Shown here piece after piece: positions 2,510 to 10,822 of a stretch of 64,000 nt of DNA. The notes under the pieces are model-generated. The model saw only the letters and a list, made by a program, of their open reading frames with translations. It had not been told where the DNA came from and searched no databases. Numbering within the stretch: position 1 is the first letter of the stretch; every line of letters starts with the position of its first letter. The translations under genes and the position numbers were made by a program. The DNA comes from Rahnella woolbedingensis (lineage in GTDB: Bacteria > Pseudomonadota > Gammaproteobacteria > Enterobacterales > Enterobacteriaceae): positions 124,001 to 188,000 of the forward strand of contig NZ_RAHH01000003.1 in assembly GCF_003602095.1 (NCBI RefSeq). Reading direction: 5' to 3'.

Positions 2510-3523
2510 TTACTTGCCGGAAGGATTATTGCCGGGAATATCGACCGTTTCTATTTTCGTTTTCCGCTGAAGCGTTAGCGTCGAACCCGCCGATGCCGCG
2601 ATAATGGCCGCCAGTCCGAGCCACTGTGTGCCCGTCAGGAACTCGCCGAGGAAGATAATGCCGGAAAGCGCCGCCATCGCCGGTTCCATGCTCATCAGCG
2701 TACCGAAGGTTTTGGCCGGTAATTTGGTCAGCGCCATCATTTCCAGTGAATAAGGGATAGCCGAAGTGAGCAGGGCGATAAGCAGGCCCAGCGGCAGGAT
2801 TTCCCAGCTGAATATAGACGTCTTCGCCTGGATGACACCGATAGGGAAGAATATCAGTGCGGCAATCAGCGAGCCCATCGCGGCGGTGCCGGGGCCATAG
2901 CTGCTGCCTGCACGTTGTCCGGCAAGAATGTAAATCGCCCAGCACGCGCCCGCAATCAGGGCAAAACAGGCGCCTTTGAGATCAACACCGCCCGCGCTTT
3001 GCCCGATTGGCAGCAGGAAAAGTAATCCGGTGACAGCCAGCACCACCCAGACAAAATCAACAGGTCTGCGCGAAGAGAACATGGCGACGGCCAGCGGGCC
3101 GGTAAATTCCAGTGCAACGGCAATGCCGAGCGGCACGGTACGCAGCGCCAGATAAAAGGAGTAGTTCATGCAGCCCAGTGCCAGACCATACATCAGCAAG
3201 GATCGCAGATTGCCGCCGCGCATTTTCAGGCGCCACGGACGGAAATAGAGTAATAACAAAATCGAGCCGATACCCAGTCGCAACGCGGTGACGCCTTGCG
3301 GCCCGACTACCGGGAACAACGTTTTGGCCAGTGACGCGCCGCCCTGCAAGGAAAGCATGGCTACCAGCAGCAACAGGATCGCCACCAGGGGAGATGATTT
3401 TTTAGGTAAAGCCGGAACCGGAGGGCTGTTGTTATTTGTCGCAGGCGGCAGAGCGGTCTGCGTTTCCTGCGGCGAATTCTGTCCTGAATGAGTCATCCTT
3501 TGAGCCTTTTGAGGTGATTCCAT
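2510..3523 (-). CDS. rhtA: Threonine/homoserine exporter RhtA (EamA family)
   Basis: An inner-membrane exporter of threonine and homoserine of the drug/metabolite transporter superfamily, with about ten membrane segments in two EamA repeats. The sequence follows E. coli RhtA closely through LQGGASLAKTLFP, VPLGIAVALEFTGPLAVA, SSRRPVDFVWVVLAV, GACWAIYILAGQRAG and KTFGTLMSMEPAMAALSG. It has 337 residues against about 295 in E. coli. The extra length is a polar, Pro/Gln-rich N-terminal tail of about 40 residues. The start is uncertain: neither 3523 nor the in-frame ATG at 3496 has an ideally placed ribosome site. Adjacent divergent ompX matches the E. coli order. Confidence 0.93.
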   Translation of the reverse strand: MESPQKAQRMTHSGQNSPQETQTALPPATNNNSPPVPALPKKSSPLVAILLLLVAMLSLQGGASLAKTLFPVVGPQGVTALRLGIGSILLLLYFRPWRLKMRGGNLRSLLMYGLALGCMNYSFYLALRTVPLGIAVALEFTGPLAVAMFSSRRPVDFVWVVLAVTGLLFLLPIGQSAGGVDLKGACFALIAGACWAIYILAGQRAGSSYGPGTAAMGSLIAALIFFPIGVIQAKTSIFSWEILPLGLLIALLTSAIPYSLEMMALTKLPAKTFGTLMSMEPAMAALSGIIFLGEFLTGTQWLGLAAIIAASAGSTLTLQRKTKIETVDIPGNNPSGK

Positions 3524-3907
3524 TAATACAGAATCTTTTAGATTTATAGTTTTGAAAAGAAAGGTAAAGCACGGTCAGTGTAGAGGGAAAACGGGAGAGA
3601 AAAAATCCTGAAAAAAAGTTTTTTTCAGAACGTGTTTTTTTAAAAGAAGCGAAAAAACGCCTGAAAAGTGTCCGTTTTTTGTCCATCTAATTAGGAATTA
3701 TCTGCTAATTTCAAAAAGTTCAATAAGTTTAACTTATAGTTTATGTGACGAAAATCCCAATAAAATGAATGAAATAGGTAGTACTGGAAACTTCCTGTTA
3801 CACCATATGATGCTTTGGACATCTTAATTGAGGCAGAGTTTCACACTGTTTTTTGTTATATTTTCGAACGTGAAGGTTACTTTGGTTTCTCATTTGAGGT
3901 GGTTACG
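3524..3907. other. rhtA-ompX intergenic region
   Basis: An AT-rich divergent promoter region of about 380 bp, with no convincing gene. It contains a palindrome at 3609-3629: CTG plus seven A, a central G, then seven T plus CAG. Runs of T follow on the plus strand, so it could form a weak hairpin. The ompX promoter must lie in the right half, but I cannot assign its -35/-10 boxes with confidence. Confidence 0.5.
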
Positions 3908-4438
3908 ATGAAAAAAATCGCATGTCTTTCCGCATTAGCTTGCGTAGTAGCACTGGGCGCATCAAGCGCATTCGCTGACACCAGCACCGTTACCGCTGGT
4001 TATGCTCAGGGTGATATGCAAGGCGTTGCTAACAAAGCAAACGGCTTCAACTTAAAATACCGCTGGGAACAAGATAACAACCCGCTGGGCGTTATCGGTT
4101 CTTTCACTTACATCGAAGATGACAGCACTCCGGCATCGGGTGACTACCGTAAAGGTTCTTACTACGGCATCACTGCAGGTCCTGCTTACCGTCTGAATGA
4201 CTGGGCTTCCATCTACGGTGTTGTAGGTGTGGGTTACGGTAAATTCCAGTACACCGAAAACACGGCTTCAACCGCTGACCGTTCAAAGTCTGACAGCAGC
4301 GATTACGGCTTCTCTTACGGTGCTGGTATGCAGTTCAACCCAATCAAAAACGTTGCTCTTGACGTTTCCTACGAACAGTCCCGCATCCGCAGTGTTGATG
4401 TTGGTACCTGGATCGCAGGCGTGGGTTACAGCTTCTAA
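3908..4438 (+). CDS. ompX: Outer membrane protein OmpX
   Basis: A 176-residue precursor of the eight-stranded outer-membrane barrel OmpX. Residues 1-23 are a signal peptide cleaved near AFA-DTS. The mature part keeps the family signatures GFNLKYRWEQDNNPLGVIGSFTY, YYGITAGPAYRLNDWASIYG and the C-terminal strand VGTWIAGVGYSF, ending in Phe as outer-membrane proteins do. The loop around residues 125-140 (ENTASTADRSKSDSSDYG) is longer than in E. coli, as is common for exposed loops. The start at 3908 is supported by GAGGTGG upstream; the longer in-frame reading from 3815 has no ribosome site and would bury the signal peptide. Confidence 0.97.
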   Translation: MKKIACLSALACVVALGASSAFADTSTVTAGYAQGDMQGVANKANGFNLKYRWEQDNNPLGVIGSFTYIEDDSTPASGDYRKGSYYGITAGPAYRLNDWASIYGVVGVGYGKFQYTENTASTADRSKSDSSDYGFSYGAGMQFNPIKNVALDVSYEQSRIRSVDVGTWIAGVGYSF

Positions 4439-4535: not shown

Positions 4536-5300
4536 TCAAATCCCGCTATACCAGTTATAGCCCTGATCTTCCCAGTAGCCGCCGGGGTTCTCGTTGGTGA
4601 CGAAAATCGCGCCGATGTGCTTGGCATTTTTGAAGCCGAGCTTGGTGGGCATCCGCAGACGGAGCGGATAACCGAAATCCGGAGGCAAAGGCTTACCGCC
4701 GAAATCCAGCGCCAGAATGGTTTGCGGATGCAGCGCCGTCGCCATATCGATGCTGGAATAGTAGCGGTCGTCGCATTTAAACCCGACATATTTAGCGGTC
4801 AGATCCGCGCCGACGTGCTGTAAAAACGTTTTCAGCGGCACGCCTTTCCACTGCCCGATGGCGCTCCAGCCTTCAATACAAATCAGACGGGTGATCTGAC
4901 TTTCCTGCGGCAGTCGCTGCAACTGTTCCAGCGTCCACGGGGCTTTCTTTTGTACCAGACCGGAGACTTCCAGCCGGTAATTGGGGATGTCGATCTCCGG
5001 CACGTTATATTCCGGATAATAGGCATTGAACCTGAACGGCGTGGTGATTTGGTCGGCGCGGTAGGTTTGTGCCAGTTTCTGGCCGCTGAACAGCCAGCCC
5101 TGCACGCGATCATTCCAGCGTGACATCGCCCACAGCACTTTATCGACCTCGTCACCGTCTTGCAGATTACAGCCAGTCAGCATCGAAACCGCGCCTAACG
5201 TGAGACCTGAACGCAATAACATTCGGCGCTGAATATTGACCAGCTGTTTGCGCTGATCGGGCTCAAGAATAATTTTTGGCCGGCGTGATTTATCACTCAT
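4536..5300 (-). CDS. Periplasmic molybdopterin-dependent oxidoreductase (sulfite oxidase fold)
   Basis: A 254-residue enzyme of the sulfite-oxidase/YedY superfamily. An N-terminal twin-arginine-like signal (RRMLLRSG, Arg25-Arg26) leads to a lipobox LTGC with Cys44, suggesting Tat export and lipid anchoring. The core has the family stretch PNYRLEVSGLV. Cys141, in RLICIEGWSAIGQWKG, is the expected molybdenum thiolate ligand. It is shorter than E. coli MsrP (334 residues), so it is a relative and not an orthologue. It overlaps the cytochrome b gene by eight bases and would take electrons from it, or give electrons to it. The substrate is unknown; methionine sulfoxide or another oxidised compound is a guess from the two-component system next door. 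Confidence 0.85.
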   Translation of the reverse strand: MSDKSRRPKIILEPDQRKQLVNIQRRMLLRSGLTLGAVSMLTGCNLQDGDEVDKVLWAMSRWNDRVQGWLFSGQKLAQTYRADQITTPFRFNAYYPEYNVPEIDIPNYRLEVSGLVQKKAPWTLEQLQRLPQESQITRLICIEGWSAIGQWKGVPLKTFLQHVGADLTAKYVGFKCDDRYYSSIDMATALHPQTILALDFGGKPLPPDFGYPLRLRMPTKLGFKNAKHIGAIFVTNENPGGYWEDQGYNWYSGI

Positions 5301-5934
5301 CGGCGCTTTCCTCCGTACTTATCTTTTTGCCGCCGGTCAGCATCGCCACGAAGGTTTTAGGCACCAGCAGAACCATCAGTACGTGAATAATGACGAACAG
5401 CATCACGCCGCTCATCGCAAAAAAATGCACATAACGCGCGATATCAAAACCGCCGAACAGCCACACCAGCCCGCTGAACTGCACGGGTTTCCAGATGGAT
5501 AATCCGGAAAGCAAAAGCAATACGCCGAGCACCAGAACGCCGCTGTACATCAGTTTTTGTACGGCGTTGTACTGCCCGAGTTTGTGGGGAAGTTTGAATG
5601 TCAGCGCACGAACGGTATCGCGCCAGACGGAACCGGGTGAAAAGGGCAGGAAATCGCGTCTGAAATGGCCGCTGAAAAAGCTCCACAGAATATAGAAAAG
5701 GGCGTTAGCTGCCAGCAGCCACATCACCGCCAGATGCCAGGCGATGTTACCGCCCAGCCAGCCGCCGAGAGTTGTGTTTTGCGGGAAGGTGAACGCGAAA
5801 ATCGGGTCGGCGTTATAAATCCCCCAGCCGCTCATGACCATGCCGATCATGGCCAGCAGATTGATCCAGTGACAAATGCGCACCGGCCAGGAATGCACCC
5901 TGCGTTTTCGAAGGGGAGAGGGCTGAGGTTTCAC
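5293..5934 (-). CDS. Membrane cytochrome b partner of the Mo enzyme
   Basis: A 213-residue integral membrane protein of the NiFe-hydrogenase/thiosulfate-reductase cytochrome b family (four to five membrane helices). Candidate haem ligands are His22 (RICHWINLL), His67 (AWHLAVMW), His170 (ARYVHFFAM) and His184 (VIIHVLMV). It starts with GTG at 5934 with AGGAG eight bases upstream. It is transcribed after the small exported protein and overlaps the oxidoreductase gene, so it probably links quinones to that enzyme. It is not MsrQ-like in sequence, although the pairing recalls MsrPQ. Confidence 0.82.
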   Translation of the reverse strand: MKPQPSPLRKRRVHSWPVRICHWINLLAMIGMVMSGWGIYNADPIFAFTFPQNTTLGGWLGGNIAWHLAVMWLLAANALFYILWSFFSGHFRRDFLPFSPGSVWRDTVRALTFKLPHKLGQYNAVQKLMYSGVLVLGVLLLLSGLSIWKPVQFSGLVWLFGGFDIARYVHFFAMSGVMLFVIIHVLMVLLVPKTFVAMLTGGKKISTEESADE

Positions 5935-5973
5935 GGAAAAACTCCTGTTGTCCGGTAAGGCCGTCAGGCCGGA

Positions 5974-6597
5974 TTACATTGGTGGCGTGACGCCGTCTTT
6001 ACCCGCAGAAATGCCGCGTGCAACCAGGGAACCTTTGTCATCTTTCATCGCAAACAGTACGACTTTGGTGCCCGGTTTCAGCAGGCTGCGGTCGCCCGGC
6101 GCCAGCAGAACGACTGGGACATCGTCGGGAACGACAACCGTTTTCTCTGCATCATGGTATTTAACGGTCAGCGTGCGGCCATTGCTGTTAACCAGTTTGC
6201 CGACGGTGCCGTTGGTCATGGTGTTGATTTTGCCGTCCGGCGATTCAAACGGGTTGAAACCCTCGCCACTGCCGCGCAGGCTTGGCGCGAATACGTGAAC
6301 TTCCAGCGCTTTCAGCGTGCCGTTCGCTTGTGGCACGGCGGCTGTGCCGATGAAGCTGTCAGCTTTGATATCACTGATCTGGCCTTTGGTGACGGAGTTG
6401 ATGCGGGTTTTGTCGGTGAGCTTAACGTCGAGTTTTTCGCCCTGACGGGTGGTGATTTGTACGGATGAGTCATTAACGGAATCGATGGTTCCGCGCGTCG
6501 GTTTGATCACGTTATCGGCGGCGAAAGCCGTTGCCATTGTGCTGCTCATCAGCAGAGAACCCAGTAACAAACCCGCAAGACGTTTGGTGGTATTCAT
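5974..6597 (-). CDS. Small exported protein of the Mo/cytochrome b cassette, function unknown
   Basis: A 207-residue secreted protein with a signal peptide (residues 1-27, cleaved near AFA-ADN). The mature part is built of beta-rich segments (TRGTIDSVNDSSVQITTRQGEKLDVKLTD and a second similar stretch VGKLVNSNGRTLTVKYHDAEKTVVVPDD), which looks like two repeats of an OB/DUF5666-like fold. It is the first gene of the three-gene leftward unit, with GGAG before the ATG. It has no cofactor motif and no cysteine in the mature part. A role as a metal or redox sensor, or as a chaperone for the enzyme, is only a possibility. Confidence 0.7.
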   Translation of the reverse strand: MNTTKRLAGLLLGSLLMSSTMATAFAADNVIKPTRGTIDSVNDSSVQITTRQGEKLDVKLTDKTRINSVTKGQISDIKADSFIGTAAVPQANGTLKALEVHVFAPSLRGSGEGFNPFESPDGKINTMTNGTVGKLVNSNGRTLTVKYHDAEKTVVVPDDVPVVLLAPGDRSLLKPGTKVVLFAMKDDKGSLVARGISAGKDGVTPPM

Positions 6598-6705
6598 TTT
6601 TAAATCTCCAGTTTCCGGCGTTATTTCATTTGGTTAAAAGAATCACTGAACCTGACAGTGATGAATAACTTCATTAAGAGTGGACGATAAACCGGGATCG
6701 GCTGA

Positions 6706-6734
6706 TGACAAATTGATGACAAAATTGTCATCAA
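6706..6734. promoter_or_regulatory. CusR/HprR-type operator between the redox cassette and the two-component genes
   Basis: TTGATGACAA (6713-6722) and TTGTCATCAA (6725-6734) form a perfect inverted repeat with a 2-base spacer. The core TGACAA-N2-TTGTCA equals the published CusR/HprR box of E. coli. A third half-site TGACAA starts at 6706, exactly 11 bp before the one in the palindrome. It lies about 76 bp before the response-regulator ATG and about 115 bp before the exported-protein gene, so it can serve both directions. Confidence 0.75.
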
Positions 6735-6810
6735 AGGTGTCTGGCGAAACTGATAAACTTGCCTGTGAATCATTCTTTGGGAGAATGGTCTTGCGGCGCT
6801 GAGGGCCTGA

Positions 6811-7485
6811 ATGCGGATACTGGTGATTGAAGATGATGTCAGTACGGGCGATTACCTGAAAAAAGGGCTGACCGAAGCCGGTTACAGCGTCGATCTGGCG
6901 CGTAACGGAGCCGACGGCCTGTTTCTGGCGCTGGAAGAAGGCTATGACACGGTGATCCTCGACGTCATGCTGCCCGGCCTCGACGGCTGGCAGGTGATGG
7001 AAGTCCTGCGCAAGAAAAGCGACGTGCCGGTGCTGTTTCTGACGGCCCGCGATGAAGTGCAGGATCGCATTCACGGGCTGGAACTGGGCGCTGACGATTA
7101 TCTGATCAAACCGTTCTCCTTTACCGAGCTGGTATTGCGCATCCGCACGTTGCTGCGCCGTCCTGCCGCCCGCGAGCCGGATATTTACTCCGTTGCTGAC
7201 CTTAACCTTGATGTCCTGCGCCGCCGCGTGACCCGTCAGGATCAGACCATCGCGCTGACCAATAAAGAATTCATGTTGTTACAGCTGCTGATGCGCCGTG
7301 AGGGCGAAGTGCTGTCACGCACCATGATCGCCTCGCAGGTATGGGATATGAATTTCGACAGCGACACCAACGTGGTGGATGTCGCCATCAAACGTCTGCG
7401 TGCCAAAGTTGACCGCGCCTTTGAGCTGAAACTGATCCACACCGTACGCGGCATTGGCTACGTCTGTGAGGTGCGCAATGTCTGA
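6811..7485 (+). CDS. OmpR-family response regulator, CusR/HprR type
   Basis: A 224-residue DNA-binding response regulator. The receiver domain (residues 1-115) has the acidic pair Asp8-Asp9, phosphoacceptor Asp51 (VILDVMLPG), Thr78 and Lys100 (YLIKPF). The winged-helix output domain (about 125-220) ends in the family motif HTVRGIGYV. It belongs to the heavy-metal-type group (CusR, HprR, CopR). The kinase gene overlaps its end by eight bases. The CusR/HprR-type palindrome upstream fits autoregulation and control of the divergent redox cassette. Confidence 0.92.
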
Positions 7486-8914
7486 TATTAGCGCTGTTAA
7501 AACACCTGTCCGGGCCATGTCACTGACCCTGCGCGCCACGTTACTTTTTGCGCTGATCGCTTCGCTGGTGGTCAGTGCCGTAGGCTTTTATCTCTATTAC
7601 TCGATGGGGAAAGAGCTGGTGCGCCGTGCGGATTATCAGGTCAGCGGGCGCGTACAGTATTTTCACCATCTGCTGGCGGACGAATTTCCGCTGTCGCAGC
7701 TGACCCGTAATCCCGGCCTGTTCGAAAACATGCTCGGTAATGAACGCGACATTCTGACCTTCAGCCTCACCGGTCAGGCGCCGCTTATCAACGTCAATCC
7801 TTCCCGTCTGGTCATCCCGCCCGTTGCGCCGGTGCCGGACGGTCAGCCGCTAACGCTGCAAACGGTTCACGCGCTGAGCGCACCGGATGGTACGCCGGTG
7901 CGCTTTGCCCGTGCGGCGGTGAAAATTCAGGACGGGCGAACCGTCGAAATTACCGCCGCCCATTTTATGACTGAAGAATCGCGTCTCTTAGAAACCTTCC
8001 GCTGGGAAATTATTGGCGCAGTTTTGTTTGCGTATCTGCTGATAGCGGCGCTGGGTTATCTGGTTATCCGTCGCGGATTAAGACCACTGCGTAATATGGC
8101 GCGGGAGGCAACGCAGATCCATCCGGCCAGCTTATCGACACGGCTGAGCACCGACAAAGCGCCGCAGGAATTACAGCAGCTCATCCTTTCTTTCAACGAC
8201 ATGCTGGAAAGGCTGGCGGAAGGTTATCAGCGGCTGACGCAGTTTTCTGCTGACCTGGCCCATGAAATCCGCACACCGGTGGGGGCGCTGATGGGGCATT
8301 GTCAGGTGGCGCTGTATCAGCCACGCACGGTGGAAGAATATGAAACGCTGCTGGCAAATAACATGGAAGAACTGGAACGCATCTCGCGAATGGTTGAAAA
8401 CATTCTGTTCCTGGCGCGTGCTTCGGATGCGCGATCGGTTCTCACCATCACCAGTATTGATGTTTCATCGGAAATTACGCGCATTCAGGAATACTTTGAA
8501 GGGCTGGCGGAAGAGCGTGAAATGACACTTCACGGTGCCGGGCGTGGAATATTGCAGGCCGATGCGATTTTATTTCAGCGGGCGCTGAGCAATCTGGTGG
8601 CTAATGCGGTGCGTTATGGGCGGGAAGGAAGCGAAATTGTGTTGCGCGCCGAACCTCACAACAAAGGCATGAACATCCACGTGATCAGTCAGGGTGACCC
8701 GATCCCTGCGGACAAGCTCGGAAAACTGTTCGACCGTTTTTATCGCGCTGACGCATCGCGCAGTGAAGGCGGCAGTTCCAGCGGGCTCGGTTTATCGATA
8801 GTTCAGGCCATTATGGCGCTGCATCAGGGCAGTGTGAGTGTAGAAAGTTCAGCGCAGGGAGAAACGCGTTTCACGCTGTCCTTTCCATCAGCCGATCACA
8901 AACTTTCTCAATAA
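7478..8914 (+). CDS. Heavy-metal-type sensor histidine kinase
   Basis: A 478-residue membrane sensor kinase. Membrane segments at about residues 20-42 and 177-197 enclose a periplasmic sensor of about 130 residues. A HAMP region follows, then the H-box with His262 ([18 protein letters not shown]), and an ATPase domain with [18 protein letters not shown] and [13 protein letters not shown] chose the ATG at 7478, which overlaps the regulator gene end, over an in-frame start eight codons earlier. The periplasmic domain has no Met- or His-rich copper motif, which argues against a plain copper sensor. The stimulus may be oxidative, as for E. coli HprS. Confidence 0.9.
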
Positions 8915-9145: not shown

Positions 9146-10822
9146 ATGCAAAAATTACGATCACTTTCGCAACAGAGCATTTCTTTGTTCATTGCACTTT
9201 ATCTTGGGATTTTACTGAACCTTCCGATTTTCTTCCGTCGTTTCGAGCAACTGCATTATGACAATGCCTTGTCCATTGCTGTTGAAGCGATCGCCTGTTT
9301 CGCGCTGGTCTACTTCCTTTGTATGTTGTTGTCCTATACCGGAAAAACCGTTTTCCGTGTGCTGATGACGGCCATTGTTATTTCCTCTGCTGCTGCCAGC
9401 TATTACATGATCCTGTTCAACGTCGATATCGGTTACGGTGTTTTGGCGGCGGCGCTGGCCTCGGACTCGATTGATTTATCGAAAGAATCTGTCGGTACGC
9501 ACTTTATCGTCTGGACGGTGCTGGTCAGCCTGATCCCCGTTCTGCTGCTGTGGCTGAGCAGAATGCCGGGTGCATCGCTCAAACAAACCACCTTTAAAAA
9601 GCTGGCAGTGAGAACCATGCTGCTCGCGGTTTCCGGGCTGATTTGTTATATGCCGCTGCGCCTGATGGGCAAAGTGCAGGATCGCCACGATATCGTTAAT
9701 AACCGCATGATGGCGAGTTATGGCGGCGTGGTCGCAGGGACGTATTCGCCGTCGAACTGGCTTTCGGCACTGGGTTTATACACCTACAGCAGTTACAGCC
9801 AGGCGGAAGACACCAAAAACCTGTTCGATCCGGCCAAACACTTCACCTACACCGCCCCTGCTGATGCCAAAGATATGTATGTGGTCTTTGTGATTGGCGA
9901 AAGTGCGCGTCGCGACCATATGGGCTTGTACGGCTACGACCGCGACAACACACCGAATCTCGACAAAGAGAAAAATCTGGTCGCGTTGCAGGGATATTCC
10001 TGCGATACCGCGACCAAACTTTCCCTGCGCTGTATGTTTGTGCGTGAAGGCGGCGCTTCCGAAGAACCGCAACGAACCCTGAAAGAAGCCAACGTGTTTT
10101 CTGTGCTGAAAAGCAACGGCTGGAGCTCTGAGCTGTATTCCATGCAAAGCGAAGCGTGGTTCTACAATAAAACCCGCGCTGATGATTACTCACTGCGTGA
10201 AAACATTGCCTCTGAAAAGCGTAACGCCGGTAAGCCGGTGGATGACATGCTGCTCATCAATGAAATGAAAGATTCGATGAACAATCATCCGCAGGGTAAA
10301 CATCTGATTATTCTGCATACCAAAGGCTCGCATTATCTTTATTCCGACCGTTATCCGCGTTCTTTCGCCAAATATAAGCCGGAATGTATGGGCATTGATG
10401 ATTCCTGTTCTACACAAGAGATGATCAACGCATACGACAACTCGCTGCTGTATACCGACTATTTCCTGTCGCAGGTCTTTGACCAGCTGCGCGATAAAAA
10501 TGCGATTGTGTTTTATGCCTCCGATCACGGTGAGTCGATTTCCAAAAGTATGCACTTCCACGGCACACCGCGCGATCATGCGCCGATTGAACAGCGTACT
10601 GTGCCGATCATGGTCTGGGCGTCTGACAAATTCCTGTCTAACGATCAGAACAAAGCCAGCTTTGAACAGTTGCAAAAAATGGCTGCTGAGAAGAAACCGG
10701 CTTTCCATGAAAAACTGTACGACACCATTCTCGGCTGTATCGGCTACACCTCGCCAAATGGCGGGATAGTCGAGCAACATAACTGGTGCCATGTGCCTGA
10801 TCAGGCTGCTGCCGCAAAATAA
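9146..10822 (+). CDS. eptB: Kdo2-lipid A phosphoethanolamine 7''-transferase EptB
   Basis: A 558-residue inner-membrane enzyme that adds phosphoethanolamine to the outer Kdo sugar of lipopolysaccharide. Five membrane helices fill about residues 10-170. The periplasmic sulfatase-like domain follows with the metal site Glu252 (FVIGESARRDHMG), the catalytic Thr290 in SCDTATKLSLRCMF, ASDHGES and HFHGTPRDHAP. Long identical stretches with E. coli EptB (for example LHTKGSHYLYSDRYPRSFAKYKPEC compared with its counterpart) support orthology. The ribosome site before 9146 is weak. It lies about 230 bp downstream of the sensor kinase in the same direction, so read-through is possible. Confidence 0.93.
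   Translation: MQKLRSLSQQSISLFIALYLGILLNLPIFFRRFEQLHYDNALSIAVEAIACFALVYFLCMLLSYTGKTVFRVLMTAIVISSAAASYYMILFNVDIGYGVLAAALASDSIDLSKESVGTHFIVWTVLVSLIPVLLLWLSRMPGASLKQTTFKKLAVRTMLLAVSGLICYMPLRLMGKVQDRHDIVNNRMMASYGGVVAGTYSPSNWLSALGLYTYSSYSQAEDTKNLFDPAKHFTYTAPADAKDMYVVFVIGESARRDHMGLYGYDRDNTPNLDKEKNLVALQGYSCDTATKLSLRCMFVREGGASEEPQRTLKEANVFSVLKSNGWSSELYSMQSEAWFYNKTRADDYSLRENIASEKRNAGKPVDDMLLINEMKDSMNNHPQGKHLIILHTKGSHYLYSDRYPRSFAKYKPECMGIDDSCSTQEMINAYDNSLLYTDYFLSQVFDQLRDKNAIVFYASDHGESISKSMHFHGTPRDHAPIEQRTVPIMVWASDKFLSNDQNKASFEQLQKMAAEKKPAFHEKLYDTILGCIGYTSPNGGIVEQHNWCHVPDQAAAAK

Follow-up and report, generated by a model that had tools for sequence, protein, structure and literature searches.

The described systems closest to the locus studied here, a five-gene cassette at positions 4536–8914 of a 64,000-nt stretch of Rahnella woolbedingensis DNA (contig NZ_RAHH01000003.1; hereafter the window), are Escherichia coli HprRS-hiuH-MsrPQ, the OrhKR-C3566/C3567/C3568 system of uropathogenic E. 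coli (UPEC), Azospira YedYZ1-MrpX and Brucella BcrXQP. HprRS-hiuH-MsrPQ resembles the cassette in its regulator family, its divergent layout, a palindrome with a ACAAAATTGT core (PMC9302797, excerpt) and the active-site residues of MsrP. It differs in that MsrQ is of the ferric-reductase type and HiuH stands in place of the cassette's DUF5666-like protein (hereafter the DUF protein); the window enzyme is 31% identical over 191 residues and falls outside the MsrP clade. In UPEC strain CFT073, deletion of c3566 or c3567 within orhK/orhR-c3566-c3567-c3568 lowers resistance to tert-butyl hydroperoxide, according to an excerpt of PMC8550376. Like the cassette, this system joins two-component genes to a same-family pair, with 53.5% identity for the enzyme and 49.7% for the cytochrome in the copies of E. 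coli 536, which by their layout would correspond to the CFT073 locus (the sequences compared were those of strain 536). Unlike the cassette, it has a regulator of another OmpR-type lineage (37% identical to ours in the 536 copy) and a methionine-rich peptide after the enzyme, whereas a folded DUF5666-like protein comes first here. YedYZ1-MrpX and BcrXQP, compared by description only (PMC8315932, excerpt), share a Mo reductase, a membrane cytochrome, an exported partner and a link to oxidants, and differ in using extracytoplasmic function (ECF) sigma/anti-sigma control and a methionine-rich peptide.

Since the enzyme class is in print and the cassette has UPEC OrhKR-type relatives, its cytochrome-enzyme core belongs to a known kind; what is new here is the exported partner together with its regulator. 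We consider it probable that the cassette encodes a methionine-sulfoxide reductase that is tethered to the membrane, fed from quinol, induced by oxidants and equipped with a folded partner of its own. Through periplasmic methionines, the kinase would detect an oxidant in the envelope, most likely reactive chlorine and perhaps peroxide; the response regulator would bind the palindrome and switch on the divergent operon, and a b561-type cytochrome would carry electrons from quinol to the Mo enzyme, which would reduce methionine sulfoxide and so repair oxidised methionines in the cell envelope. The DUF protein would be a dedicated partner, most likely a substrate or a presenter of methionine on a flexible loop, filling the slot held by the methionine-rich peptide in related systems.

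A divergent five-gene unit around one palindrome

The cassette is a unit in which a two-component pair and a divergent three-gene operon are arranged around one palindrome. The operon, on the minus strand, is transcribed in the order DUF protein (5974–6597; 207 aa), b561-type membrane cytochrome (5293–5934; 213 aa, GTG start) and Mo-pterin oxidoreductase (4536–5300; 254 aa), the last two genes overlapping by 8 bp. The plus strand encodes an OmpR-family response regulator of the CusR/PcoR/HprR type (6811–7485) and a histidine kinase, a membrane sensor from that same kind of system (7478–8914, with the ATG set at 7478 from reading of the sequence). Both exceed the cut-offs of CusR/CopR/HprR subfamily models, with 340 bits against 279 for TIGR01387 and 479 against 293 for TIGR01386. 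Open reading frame coordinates and family models thus agree with the five gene positions, the strands and the CusR/HprR-type regulator family proposed by a sequence-only reading of this DNA.

That reading also assumed an operator, and the 213-bp intergenic stretch indeed contains, at 6713–6734, an inverted repeat whose 9-bp arms are separated by 4 nt (TTGATGACA-AAAT-TGTCATCAA). Relatives of the enzyme were sought in a collection of 84,980 species, and the best 80 of at least 582 confirmed relatives (at least 594 stretches) were examined; this set of 80 is defined by nearness and does not sample the relatives at random. The strict five-gene divergent layout occurs in 59 of the 80, so that the expected conservation of the three-gene order is borne out. 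The strict operator core TGACA-N4-TGTCA is present in 30 of the 59 homologous intergenic regions, and a relaxed core, TGAC-N6-GTCA, chosen after seeing the regions without the strict one, in 51. Its density is 2.19 per kb in the intergenic regions versus 0.037 per kb elsewhere in these loci, and 200 mononucleotide shuffles placed it in 0.3 regions on average and in 3 at most. Taken together, layout and palindrome therefore go beyond chance.

Apart from the cassette response regulator, the genome has no TIGR01387 match at E up to 1e-60. A wider regulon was rejected, as TGACA-N4-TGTCA occurs at five genomic places and a reversed control pattern likewise at five, and only the cassette site among these five reads TGACAAAATTGTCA. 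These observations suggest a regulator that acts locally. A promoter scan was uninformative (3 sites against 2.5 expected).

Among the matches listed, the nearest named loci are those of Rahnella ecdela and R. bonaserana (99% identical at the enzyme), and Ewingella and Hafnia loci reach 96–97%. Carriers also include Serratia, Pseudomonas, Achromobacter, Paraburkholderia, Variovorax and Rhizobium, and the five-gene unit occurs in many plant- and soil-associated bacteria. The surrounding genes are mostly unshared, with no Pfam family present in more than four members among 65 proteins scanned out of 131 flank proteins listed.

The exported partner and its regulator across loci

The first operon product, described beforehand as an extra exported beta-rich protein, is indeed modelled as a tandem of small barrels. 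PF18914 gives the window protein 22.1 bits (E 1.8e-4), below its cut-off of 27, and matches 32 of 35 aligned rows at E up to 1 (best 1.8e-8). The two halves of the protein are related (HHalign probability 95), and the model has a mean pLDDT of 82.9, with residues 127–130 under 50. Met127 lies within this least confident stretch, which the model suggests is probably mobile, and begins a Met127-Thr-Asn motif found in 35/35 rows; a C-terminal Pro-Pro-Met is kept in 33/35. In the distant relative L138, an MTNGTV stretch occurs three times, recalling the repeats of methionine-rich peptides.

Partner calls cover 134 loci, namely the 80 nearest, 40 hand-chosen from a wider, phylum-wide draw (20 strong and 20 weaker matches) and 14 hand-picked ones, and rest on score thresholds, with partners taken within 2.2 kb and regulators within the fetched stretch. 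The DUF protein accompanies the enzyme in 91 loci and a methionine-rich peptide in 19; no locus has both. The corresponding numbers for the 40 wider-draw loci are 8, 14 and 0, with 18 having neither partner (L164, L165, L167, L168, L171, L173, L176–L182, L188, L189 and L200–L202). A third kind of partner may exist at such loci. Over all 134 loci, 24 were scored as having neither partner, one of them a Methylobacterium locus, L141, whose MXKDX gene lies beyond 2.2 kb. Among the 80 nearest loci, a methionine-rich peptide lies near the enzyme once (L089), and the window cassette has none. For YedYZ1-MrpX and BcrXQP as methionine-rich-peptide systems, Melnyk (2015) is a further reference.

The regulator is tied to the exported protein: a CusR-type regulator occurs in 67 of the 134 loci, and all 67 have the DUF protein. 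The 19 methionine-rich loci include none with a CusR-type regulator, seven with an OrhR-like regulator, six with an ECF sigma factor (a label that needs only 35 bits) and six with neither of these. One genome holds both kinds, an ECF sigma factor with MXKDX at L197 and a CusR-type regulator with the DUF protein at L198. On the quick tree, the DUF label needs at least eight changes, four of them forced by well-supported branches, and the methionine-rich-peptide clade nests among DUF rows; on the careful tree, a weakly supported fork (81/91) has most DUF rows on a single side. Because the two trees disagree on whether the DUF rows form one group, we call DUF-type and peptide-type enzymes close relatives, not strict sisters. 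As a whole, the comparison suggests that Mo-dependent methionine repair is modular, with exchangeable exported partners and regulators joined to a conserved core of cytochrome and enzyme. The proposal of a parallel solution with a different redox module stands in that enzyme and cytochrome differ from MsrPQ; the pair itself is no undescribed module, given the printed enzyme class and the UPEC relative.

Enzyme, cytochrome and sensor in the proposed repair

The window enzyme has the sulfite-oxidase fold (PF00174, E 3.8e-34) and, by its 254 aa and its PF01292 partner, is assigned to the class 'YedY-like, group 1B' already in print (PMC7759655, excerpt), an assignment made on the class definition. 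Its twin arginine (residues 25–26) and lipobox LTGC with Cys44 are invariant in 30/30 aligned relatives, and Cys44 recurs in 133 of 135 rows of a wider set, the other two being gapped, which agrees with the shorter enzyme with a Tat/lipobox signal read from the DNA at the outset. Alignment with MsrP assigns Cys141 as Mo ligand, together with Glu143, and reveals MsrP's Cys-x-Glu-x-Trp-Ser signature; Cys141, Glu143 and Trp145 are present in 135/135 aligned rows. The nearest solved structure to the enzyme model is YedY/MsrP (1xdy, E 2.5e-12), and only the core of the model is safe, given its mean pLDDT of 64.5.

Score, tree and partner all place the enzyme outside MsrP, which belongs to group 1A, as had been anticipated. 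The NCBIfam MsrP model gives 96.3 bits against a cut-off of 207. Five MsrP rows form a 100/99 clade that excludes the window enzyme, on a tree with long branches at its base, and in the quick tree the enzyme joins its relatives at 100 SH-aLRT, apart from MsrP. The partner belongs to PF01292 (E 4e-26), whereas an annotated MsrQ belongs to PF01794, and blastp found no match between the two, so that, within these tests, cytochrome and MsrQ are unrelated. Identification as a sulfite dehydrogenase was rejected in view of sub-threshold NCBIfam scores for SoxC, SorA and SorT. In the cytochrome, His170 and His184 are present in 135/135 rows, His67 in 134 and His22 in 127, and the protein is expected to carry electrons from quinol to the enzyme.

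The window genome has three PF00174 systems, namely the cassette, a second one of its type and an MsrPQ pair, and 13/13 other genomes of the genus that were searched have three or four PF00174 matches, which makes the genus a ready model for why a cell needs more than one such system. Ahead of the second copy (L010, 3059–7217; 57% identical) lies a divergent two-component pair, whose OrhR-like regulator is 67% identical to that of E. coli 536, and after the copy comes a 100-aa methionine-rich MXKDX peptide; this makes the copy a relative of UPEC OrhKR from an environmental host. The same layout is found on R. aquatilis and E. coli plasmids. In E. coli, high-identity OrhKR-type cassettes occupy 76 plasmid places in 73 of 5,426 genomes and no chromosomal one, and more diverged copies occupy 288 chromosomal places, strain 536 among them. 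One of the plasmid cassettes (L139, 1698–6992) is carried by an IncF plasmid, close to a copy of IS26, and the kinase of the chromosomal 536 locus (L231, 2229–3700) is annotated as frameshifted. A Methylobacterium relative (58%) stands behind msrB and msrA together with MXKDX; upstream are genes for an ECF sigma factor and NrsF. The window enzyme and these close relatives share 53–58% identity, and the fork that joins them has support of 92/89 in the careful tree and 98 SH-aLRT in the quick tree.

By analogy with the UPEC C3566/C3567-type relatives, which were tested against peroxide, we strongly expect methionine sulfoxide to be the substrate. The methionine-repair reading is drawn from these OrhKR-type relatives of known effect, from MXKDX, msrA and msrB neighbours and from the invariant Mo-ligand cysteine with its MsrP-type glutamate. 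A partner acting as substrate is suggested by partner exclusivity, the invariant MTN in a low-confidence loop and the triple repeat of L138.

Sensing by the kinase is proposed because both HprS sensor-methionine positions have counterparts in the cassette kinases. We take positions 72 and 153 to be the periplasmic sensor methionines of HprS; according to El Hajj and colleagues (2022), they reportedly sense reactive chlorine. In the sensor alignment, in which kinase residues are counted from codon 7481, one below the ATG-based count, the residue corresponding to Met72 is methionine in 23/23 cassette kinases (window codon 7730–7732) and that corresponding to Met153 in 17/23. Among the control kinases, both HprS proteins have both methionines, PcoS has the first only, and both are missing from SilS, an Acinetobacter CopS and a CzcS-like kinase. 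Within the kinase family, the two HprS sensor methionines therefore vary naturally, which provides variants for comparison.

Several observations weigh against this reading. At the position of HprS Met153 the window kinase itself has leucine. The highest identity of the window response regulator is to PcoR, a copper regulator (59%), ahead of SilR and Pantoea HprR (both 57%) and an E. coli-plasmid HprR (52%), and it stays below the cut-offs of the HprR (287.5 bits against 353) and CusR (292.1 against 420) equivalog models, so that the CusR/HprR type does not resolve further to HprR. CusR-type genes are absent from 21 of the 80 nearest loci, three of which (L018, L071 and L084) are cut off by a contig end, and present in 3 of the 40 wider-draw loci; the assumption that the cassette travels with its two-component genes is thus partly contradicted. 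Five of these 21 (L043, L076, L084, L088 and L089) also have no recognised DUF gene. Across the 134 loci, 24 have neither partner, and 24 of the 91 DUF loci show no CusR-type regulator in the fetched stretch. An independent-pairs test of the DUF protein against the CusR-type regulator yielded four pairs, none against the association, and was not significant; with only four pairs significance is unreachable, and tree-based association tests are underpowered here. The DUF protein is also poor in methionine (median 2.2% after residue 30), which argues against a sponge like MrpX and led us to reject that role. The open-licence papers searched yielded no measured substrate for any DUF-type member. 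The earlier statement that the substrate appears undescribed is only partly right, given the expectation of methionine sulfoxide that follows from the class in print and from the peroxide-tested UPEC system. Finally, the DUF relatives often carry His101 (23/35), Met107 (18/35) and His114 (25/35), of which the window protein keeps His101 only; from the alignment these could possibly be metal ligands, counter to a purely redox form of the mechanism.

Copper, alternative roles and neighbouring genes

This last point bears on the main rival, in which copper is the signal: the kinase would sense periplasmic copper, the enzyme would keep copper-binding methionines reduced, and the DUF protein would act as, or protect, a CusF-like carrier. 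The nearness to PcoR agrees with it, as does the published finding that CusSR induces msrPQ under copper and that MsrP repairs CusF in E. coli (PMC9302797, excerpt). The kinases of the cassette also contain a His-x-Met pair (window codons 7961–7969; His in 23/23, Met in 20/23) that is unseen in six control kinases and leaves room for metal sensing, and relatives L142 and L143 lie near copper genes. Structurally, the top five matches of the DUF model are CusF and the CusF-like SilB domain (Z 10.5 to 9.0; next row 8.0), the CusF entries scoring Z 10.5 to 10.1, with the best at 2.0 Å over 71 residues spread over model residues 25–204. Foldseek alone returned nothing for this model at E up to 0.001, and a search of the DUF profile against sequences of solved structures returned nothing below E 0.7. 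The HHalign probability to CusF is about 18 for either half and 7 for the whole protein. The DUF protein is internally duplicated, unlike CusF, and CusF's Met-x-Met is found in 0/35 DUF rows, none of which share an invariant histidine. A CusF-type copper chaperone was therefore rejected despite the matching fold. Other metal sites than those of CusF are possible, because Met107 and His114, absent in the window protein, are common in its relatives, and these residues slightly raised our estimate for copper. No copper-resistance family is among the 25 families listed for the 65 flanking proteins scanned, one of which matches MbnB/TglH/ChrH. On balance, we regard copper as an unlikely signal here, with oxidant sensing and methionine repair the favoured account.

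Within that favoured account, the DUF protein might even be a reusable folded methionine switch, in which oxidation would strike the MTN loop (perhaps with the PPM tail) first, the Mo enzyme would restore it and the kinase would read the state of the protein. We hold this to be rather improbable. If true, the DUF protein would be both the enzyme's dedicated substrate and the gauge of the system, a signalling substrate replacing the sacrificial methionine-rich peptide. A broader form, compatible with the preferred mechanism, has the kinase read the redox or metal state of the DUF protein and the reductase reset it. The occurrence of the DUF protein in all 67 CusR-type loci speaks for such co-sensing, as do DUF and CusR-type genes beside enzymes of the methionine-rich-peptide clade (L006 and L198). 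These two form one clade with L196, which lacks the CusR-type regulator, and so count as a single event only; together with the 24 DUF loci in which no CusR-type regulator was seen, this makes co-sensing quite improbable in our judgement. It is very unlikely that the enzyme instead acts on a small S- or N-oxide or on some other inorganic substrate, a job suggested by the broad substrate possibilities of the fold and by the effect of a Campylobacter jejuni group 1A relative on nitrosative stress (PMC7759655, excerpt), in view of the methionine-rich peptide partners in related loci, the msrA and msrB genes adjoining one relative and the MsrP-type Cys-x-Glu active site. Under the favoured mechanism, the DUF protein offers a concrete role to examine for DUF5666-type proteins and may reveal how reductases of this type recognise folded clients.

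An anti-phage role was set aside, the three cassette proteins giving no match against PADLOC. In seven Methylobacterium-type loci (L007, L069, L073, L077, L090, L186 and L187), the cytochrome gene is preceded by two DUF genes, and the fetched stretch shows no CusR-type regulator. Among the 65 flanking proteins scanned, Dyp-type peroxidase genes occur at three members and an imelysin-type gene at two, a possible link to oxidants or iron in some hosts. Elsewhere in the window, the minus strand encodes an RskA-type anti-sigma factor (396–1073), an ECF sigma factor (1070–1651) and a fasciclin-domain protein (1716–2321), possibly an envelope-stress sigma unit, separated from the cassette by two other genes (2510–3523 and 3815–4438). 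On the other side, 3′ of the kinase gene, lies a phosphoethanolamine-transferase-like gene (9146–10822), whose counterpart at L012 matches Sulfatase and EptA_B_N.

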